From positions 62,001 to 126,000 of the forward strand of contig DASSIZ010000013.1 in NCBI GenBank assembly GCA_035691485.1: a stretch of 64,000 nucleotides of DNA, read 5' to 3'. Shown here in pieces: positions 35,336 through 35,813 of the stretch. The first letter of the stretch is position 1; every line of letters begins with the position of its first letter. The DNA is from Terriglobales bacterium (GTDB taxonomy: Bacteria > Acidobacteriota > Terriglobia > Terriglobales > Acidobacteriaceae). Made by a program: the position numbers and the translations under genes. Below the pieces are notes generated by a model, which saw only the letters and a program-made list of their open reading frames with translations, did no database searches and was not told the origin of the DNA.

Positions 35336-35365
35336 TTGACACACCTGCCTGTGACAAGGCATGAT
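35336..35365 (+). promoter_or_regulatory. Promoter of the chorismate mutase leader
   Basis: A perfect -35 box TTGACA (35336-35341) and CATGAT (35360-35365) are 18 bases apart. The predicted start near 35372 would leave about six bases before the leader-peptide ATG at 35378. Confidence 0.7.
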
Positions 35366-35377
35366 GCTCCTGCGCAT

Positions 35378-35467
35378 ATGTCTCGCACTCGATTTAGCTA
35401 CGCCTTTAGTTACCGCTTCTCCTTCGGGAGCAGCGGCTTAGGCGGAGCTTGTGCGTACGCGACCTAG
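35378..35467 (+). CDS. Phe/Tyr-rich leader peptide of the chorismate mutase attenuator
   Basis: A 29-codon frame (stop TAG 35465-35467) reading MSRTRFSYAFSYRFSFGSS and then GLGGACAYAT. Within codons 6-16 there are four Phe and two Tyr, the end products that branch from chorismate mutase's reaction. It lies between a promoter and a terminator just upstream of that gene, the layout of the E. coli pheL and tyrosine/phenylalanine leaders. The peptide itself needs no function: ribosome position on the Phe/Tyr codons is the signal. Too short for normal gene calling; no ribosome site is visible, and the mRNA may start almost at the ATG. Confidence 0.82.
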   Translation: MSRTRFSYAFSYRFSFGSSGLGGACAYAT

Positions 35468-35528
35468 AACCAGCGCAAAGATTCCAGACCGAAGCCGCGA
35501 ACTCTCAAGGTTCGCGGCTTTTGTTTTT
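35413..35528 (+). promoter_or_regulatory. Transcription attenuator with competing hairpins before chorismate mutase
   Basis: Hairpin 1:2 pairs CCGCTTCTCC (35413-35422) with GGAGCAGCGG (35427-35436) around UUCG, nine of ten pairs. Strand 2, GCGGCTT (35433-35439), can instead pair perfectly with AAGCCGC (35492-35498), the first arm of the terminator. The terminator 3:4 is AAGCCGCGAAC (35492-35502) / GTTCGCGGCTT (35510-35520) followed by TTGTTTTT. A ribosome stalled on the Phe/Tyr codons (35393-35425) would cover strand 1, free strand 2 and prevent termination; with ample amino acids the terminator forms. Confidence 0.85.
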
Positions 35529-35543
35529 GACAGGAGAAAACCC

Positions 35544-35813
35544 ATGGCTACCCAAATATCCGACTGGCGCGCCGCGATTGATGTTCTCGACGGCCAGCTG
35601 CTGCAGCTTCTTAACATCCGCGCCAAGCTTGCCTGCGAGCTGGCCAAGGTAAAGCGCGAATCCGGCGTCGAGATCGTGGATCCCGAACGCGAGCAGCAGG
35701 TGCTGGCCCGCGTCCGGCAGGGCAATAGCGGCCCCTTCGACCACGATGCCATTACGCGTATCTTCCAGAGCATCATTGCAGAAGCGCGGCGCGTCGAAGC
35801 TGCCATCGAGTAA
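35544..35813 (+). CDS. aroQ: Chorismate mutase, AroQ class
   Basis: Converts chorismate to prephenate, the first step towards phenylalanine and tyrosine. A stand-alone 89-residue AroQ domain: DWRAAIDVLDGQLLQLLNIRAKLACELAKVKRES with the active-site Arg and Lys of helix 1, then DPEREQQVLARVRQ and the last helix FQSIIAEARRVE. AGGAG lies seven bases before the ATG. It is not fused to prephenate dehydratase or dehydrogenase, and no other aromatic-pathway gene is adjacent. Control by the upstream Phe/Tyr attenuator is strongly suggested. Confidence 0.94.
   Translation: MATQISDWRAAIDVLDGQLLQLLNIRAKLACELAKVKRESGVEIVDPEREQQVLARVRQGNSGPFDHDAITRIFQSIIAEARRVEAAIE

Follow-up and report, generated by a model that had tools for sequence, protein, structure and literature searches.

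A predicted Phe/Tyr attenuator precedes the chorismate mutase gene

The chorismate mutase gene aroQ in the window (the whole 64-kb stretch of DNA that was analysed) is preceded by an element that we take, with a probability of about 0.9, to be a ribosome-mediated transcription attenuator sensing charged tRNA-Phe and tRNA-Tyr. Sequence comparison suggests that it is best explained as a member of a set of aromatic-pathway attenuators in Acidobacteriota. The parts of the element, all on the plus strand, were identified from the sequence and by comparison with related genomes. They begin with a promoter-like pair consisting of the -35 element TTGACA (35336..35341, kept in 4/4 genomes of the genus) and, after a spacer of 18, the -10 element CATGAT (35360..35365, also kept in the genus), which together match the consensus at 10 of 12 positions. 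The ATG of the leader peptide gene lies 12 nt 3' of the -10 box and has no clear Shine-Dalgarno sequence. This gene (35378..35467) comprises 29 codons and encodes MSRTRFSYAFSYRFSFGSSGLGGACAYAT, followed by a stop codon. It contains the control codons Phe6, Tyr8, Phe10, Tyr12, Phe14 and Phe16 (35393..35425), which specify products of the downstream pathway; a further tyrosine, Y27, is located outside this cluster. Strand 1 (35413..35422), as defined by folding and covariation, lies within codons 12-15 and thus overlaps the control codons. It is connected by a UUCG loop (35423..35426), evident in both sequence and fold, to strand 2 (35427..35442), with which it forms a 1:2 hairpin of nine pairs and one mismatch (35413-35422/35427-35436).

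Strand 2 has an alternative partner in strand 3 (35489..35498), which it reaches via 35433-35442 and which overlaps the 5' arm of an intrinsic terminator. The promoter, the leader with four Phe and two Tyr in codons 6-16, the 1:2 hairpin with its UUCG loop and the 11-bp terminator with T tail ahead of the chorismate mutase gene had all been reported in the first-pass annotation, and each is present where it was placed. The antiterminator had been described there as a perfect 7-bp pairing; this core is correct (35433-35439 GCGGCTT with 35492-35498 AAGCCGC), but the helix is longer, as one mismatch is followed by a GG/CC extension that completes 35433-35442/35489-35498, and the outer part of strand 2 (35444..35447) pairs with 35482-35485 in a helix that covaries in relatives. 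The terminator (3:4, 35492..35528), seen in both folding and alignment, has arms of 11 perfect pairs (35492-35502/35510-35520) and a T tail TTGTTTTT (35521-35528), and stands 5' of the first structural gene. The 2:3 and 3:4 helices are therefore mutually exclusive, with 1:2 in the position of a protector. A Shine-Dalgarno sequence AGGAG (35532..35536) then leads into aroQ (35544..35813), the proposed regulated gene, which encodes a stand-alone type II chorismate mutase of 89 aa (Pfam CM_2, E 8.5e-24; the best NCBIfam matches are chorismate mutase models) and is neighboured by a DUF4349 gene on one side and lpxC on the other.

Folded separately, the 1:2, 2:3 and 3:4 helices of the window have energies of -15.2, -29.8 (z -2.8) and -24.3 kcal/mol (z -5.6), respectively, and the fold of the whole leader region has a z-score of -3.8, with 0/200 shuffles as good. 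The combination of 1:2 and 3:4 (about -39.5 kcal/mol) is better than 2:3, which in turn is better than 3:4 alone, and this is the order required of a switch. The leader is the only one of 764 short ORFs starting with ATG in the window to have 6 Phe/Tyr in 12 codons, and when the region was subjected to 3000 dinucleotide shuffles such an ORF appeared in one, an equally good terminator in two, and both together in none. We therefore do not consider the element to be a product of chance.

From this arrangement we infer the start site, translation of the window leader, ribosome stalling, the efficiency of termination and a response to Phe and Tyr, which would operate as follows. The transcript would start a few bases 5' of the leader ATG, such that ribosomes load near its 5' end. 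When Phe and Tyr are ample, the ribosome would pass the codon cluster and reach the stop codon, allowing 1:2 to re-pair and leaving strand 3 free for strand 4; formation of 3:4 would then stop transcription before aroQ. As the leader ORF spans strand 2, a ribosome at the stop codon would sit inside the antiterminator loop and should help to block 2:3. Under a shortage of Phe or Tyr, the ribosome would instead stall on codons 8-14 and cover strand 1; with strand 1 masked, 2:3 would pair, the terminator would be blocked and aroQ would be transcribed, its expression directing chorismate into the Phe/Tyr branch.

Control codons and competing helices are conserved

The promoter, leader, hairpin, antiterminator and terminator are all kept in 4/4 genomes of the genus. 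The leader reading frame aligns without gaps and ends at the same stop position, the spacer 3' of the ORF contains indels, and at codons 6, 8, 10, 12, 14 and 16 the only differences are synonymous changes or Phe-Tyr swaps. In several other families, AroQs that carry a leader have likewise retained the terminator, the two competing helices and the Phe/Tyr codons.

Helix conservation was assessed in a structural alignment of 29 leaders, from which the Phe/Tyr-rich ORF 5' of the canonical AroQ at L070 was left out; the covariance model R1, built from the aroQ leaders, does not match it. The 1:2 helix is 93% paired, with a covariation of 0.321 as compared to 0.191 in shuffles, and the 2:3 helix is 80% paired, with both sides changed in 9/18 pairs and a covariation of 0.213 as compared to 0.140, although the leaders are related and these counts are thus not independent. 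For each of these two helices the covariation exceeds that of every shuffle and every slid register; the terminator helix is 87% paired and covaries more weakly. When strands were exchanged between leaders, the mean energy of the 2:3 duplexes was -28.9 kcal/mol for own partners versus -23.8 kcal/mol for swapped ones (0/5000 permutations), although in four leaders (L005, L020, L056 and L065) the own duplex has no advantage over the swapped ones. Together, the covariation and the matched-duplex test indicate that two mutually exclusive helices are both maintained by compensating changes, which is the signature of an attenuator switch. The Phe/Tyr attenuator reading advanced in the first-pass annotation is thereby strengthened, and the orthologue comparison that it had proposed came out in its favour, as the Phe/Tyr frame, the 2:3 pairing and the covarying stems are all kept alongside the terminator in the leader-bearing AroQs.

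A terminator/antiterminator pair directly 5' of an aromatic gene would also suit translation-independent sensing of Phe, Tyr or prephenate, by either a metabolite-binding riboswitch or a protein-dependent attenuator. We regard this as highly improbable, since the leader alignment shows no aptamer-like conserved core apart from strands 1-4, no Rfam family matches the element, including the riboswitch and T-box models, and the reading frame appears to be under selection, as judged by the Phe-Tyr swaps within a fixed frame. The short ORF might instead encode a trans-acting small protein, with attenuation being secondary; the motif FAFTYRF is retained across long distances, and peTrpL of Sinorhizobium provides a precedent (PMC7298713). 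However, the conserved residues coincide with the control codons and the bases of strands 1 and 2, while the C-terminal half of the peptide varies freely, and this explanation is accorded only a marginally better chance than a riboswitch. An attenuator read by the translating ribosome accordingly remains the preferred reading of these patterns.

The leader marks one clade of AroQ and begins near the promoter

Among 118 regions upstream of CM_2 genes, nearly all of them from the class, 29 contain a short ORF with a Phe/Tyr cluster (at least 5 Phe/Tyr in 12 codons), as compared to 0/118 on the reverse strand. In the AroQ tree, 28 of the 29 proteins with a Phe/Tyr leader fall into one supported group of 32, and the other 86 AroQs are mostly leaderless. 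The element thus marks one AroQ clade, not AroQ at large. Within this group, the leader of L048 lies just under the threshold, L008 and L082 have no recognisable leader, and L036 is a gene from Neomarinimicrobiota. In the latter (L036:1120-1300, JAJRVI010000201.1), aroQ is preceded by a perfect terminator and by a short ORF containing WW and YYF; R1 does not match this region, which could possibly be an aromatic attenuator in another phylum. Four genomes (G000, G416, G201 and G135) have one AroQ of each kind. In the genome of the window (G000), the second AroQ belongs to a trpC-trpF-trpB-trpA-aroQ-aroF cluster on a different contig (L267, contig C103), and the stretch read there contains no aromatic leader. 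In L056, aroQ is separated from the attenuator terminator by about 250 nt of extra sequence that contains further hairpins, and L061 has a shorter stretch of this kind.

The position of the leaders relative to their promoters is also distinctive. A promoter-like pair is located at most 90 bases upstream in 84/106 leaders, as compared to 7.6 expected from shuffles. Leader starts are often located 8-15 nt 3' of the -10 box, with a peak at 8-11 nt (26 cases versus 0.3 expected). Of the leader starts, 38% passed the Shine-Dalgarno cut, versus 100% of the aroQ starts, where the scan covered a wider stretch. The spacing peak and the general lack of a Shine-Dalgarno sequence place the leader start near the transcript start in many of these leaders, as had been suspected for the window, and the promoter spacing points to leaders that are near-leaderless.

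Similar leaders precede other genes of the aromatic pathway

R1 matches were found in 121/399 genomes of the class and in 47/396 genomes drawn from the phylum. Besides aroQ, the genes 3' of these matches encode DAHP synthase (aroF), shikimate kinase (aroK), prephenate dehydratase (pheA), a fused CM-PDT and tryptophan synthase beta (trpB). The best aroF, aroK, trpB and pheA leaders score 67-100 bits, as compared to less than about 37 bits for matches that lack a leader ORF, and this gap indicates that the shared feature exceeds a terminator alone. Common descent of the aroQ, aroF, aroK, pheA and trpB leader scaffold is likely, with convergence under shared constraints as the competing reading. 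In the genome of the window, the R1 matches L158 and L160 proved to be ordinary terminators without a leader, and in the stretches read from the window's genus no such leader precedes aroF, trpB, aroK or pheA.

The codons of these leaders differ according to the gene that follows. Trp codons are present in 20/20 aroK, 18/18 trpB and 19/21 aroF leaders (57/59 together), as compared to 11/47 aroQ/pheA leaders, a comparison in which the genomes are related and not independent, and in which part of the aroQ set was chosen on Phe/Tyr alone; in the aroQ/pheA subset found through R1 they occur in 6/18, still far fewer. Owing to this relatedness, the p-values calculated for the contrast serve as indications only. 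The tabulation omits the R1 matches that lack a leader ORF (L149, L222, L230, L239, L242 and L244) and the doubtful L238. Leader codon content thus tracks the products of the operon, with a match that is imperfect given the Trp codons in 11/47 aroQ/pheA leaders. These results also bear on the notion that the window hairpin is a mere terminator which insulates aroQ from upstream transcription, behind an accidental Phe/Tyr-rich frame. A similar GCCGCGA stem does occur in many ordinary terminators of these genomes, as exemplified by the false R1 matches L149, L222 and L230. Nevertheless, the codon cluster and the covarying 1:2 and 2:3 helices are conserved across families, the terminator is separated from the upstream gene by a conserved promoter, and the presence of Trp codons varies with the gene that lies downstream, all of which make simple insulation very improbable and argue for the attenuator.

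Several leaders merit separate mention. In G202 (L276, 2900-7000), the leader MTFQSSRFISFIYRYWYPVAASAE heads a trpB-trpA-aroQ-aroF-tyrA operon serving Trp, Phe and Tyr. In G609 and G765 (L243:60-300 and L246), the leader MSHRFTYPYWSPRADRAWRGQGPS and a terminator stand 5' of an AroFGH-type DAHP synthase gene, with a weak R1 match and a sequence unlike the main scaffold. A leader containing Cys (MTRKLYYCHYWCACTFASPAGG) and a terminator precede a cysteine synthase (CysM-like) gene in G764 (L138:1490-1680, minus strand), a candidate cysteine attenuator in Acidobacteriota, and a nitrite/sulfite reductase gene in G774 (L156:1480-1660, plus strand) is preceded by a strong terminator and the Cys-rich leader MCCLACMCCCFFSGERRR.

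With somewhat better than even confidence, we propose that one ancestral near-leaderless scaffold was copied to new promoters in Acidobacteriota and re-coded at aroF, aroK, aroQ, pheA and trpB. Each copy would then read Phe, Tyr and Trp tRNAs in a mixture suited to what its operon makes, and the window element would be the Phe/Tyr copy.

Relation to known attenuators and implications

In the pheL attenuator, a Phe-rich leader peptide gene, alternative 1:2, 2:3 and 3:4 helices and a terminator precede a chorismate mutase gene. The window element shares this type of leader, the alternative helices and the terminator with enterobacterial pheA (Rfam Phe_leader). It differs in that its gene encodes a stand-alone AroQ, whereas pheA encodes a fused CM-prephenate dehydratase, in that its leader mixes Phe and Tyr codons in a frame that runs through strand 2 and beyond, and in that the leader apparently starts near the transcript end without a Shine-Dalgarno sequence. 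The Rfam Phe_leader model does not match the window element up to E 5. In the literature searched, leader-peptide attenuators in Acidobacteriota are not described; Lopatovskaya et al. 2010, reportedly a broad attenuation survey, could hold a prediction.

The trp attenuators of Corynebacterium and Streptomyces resemble the proposed mechanism in being ribosome-mediated and in having a GC-rich antiterminator/terminator with conserved complementary triplets, but they belong to another phylum and use other codons, and the paper describing them mentions neither pheA nor a Phe leader (PMC1262725). The rnTrpL/peTrpL system of Sinorhizobium meliloti is similar in that its transcript opens with the leader peptide gene; it differs in that it mediates Trp attenuation of trpE, and its attenuated transcript and peptide also act in trans (PMC7298713). 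Within the same phylum, Naville and Gautheret predicted premature terminators genome-wide, assigned almost no function to the predicted Acidobacteria attenuators, and do not mention chorismate mutase or pheA in the main text; in this 2010 survey, leader-peptide attenuation was known only from Proteobacteria and Actinobacteria, to which a Firmicutes case was then added (PMC2965389).

The mechanism itself is thus known, and what we rate as new, as read from the genomes, is the phylum, the form of the target gene, the predicted mixed Phe/Tyr control, the near-leaderless leader and the apparent use of one scaffold with re-tuned codons at several operons. If this is correct, leader codons would help to annotate the genes behind the leader, and in a large soil phylum leader-peptide attenuation would extend over an entire pathway, the codon mixes of which could be read as its logic. 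A single RNA scaffold re-coded for different amino acids would, moreover, make the evolution of attenuator specificity directly testable.
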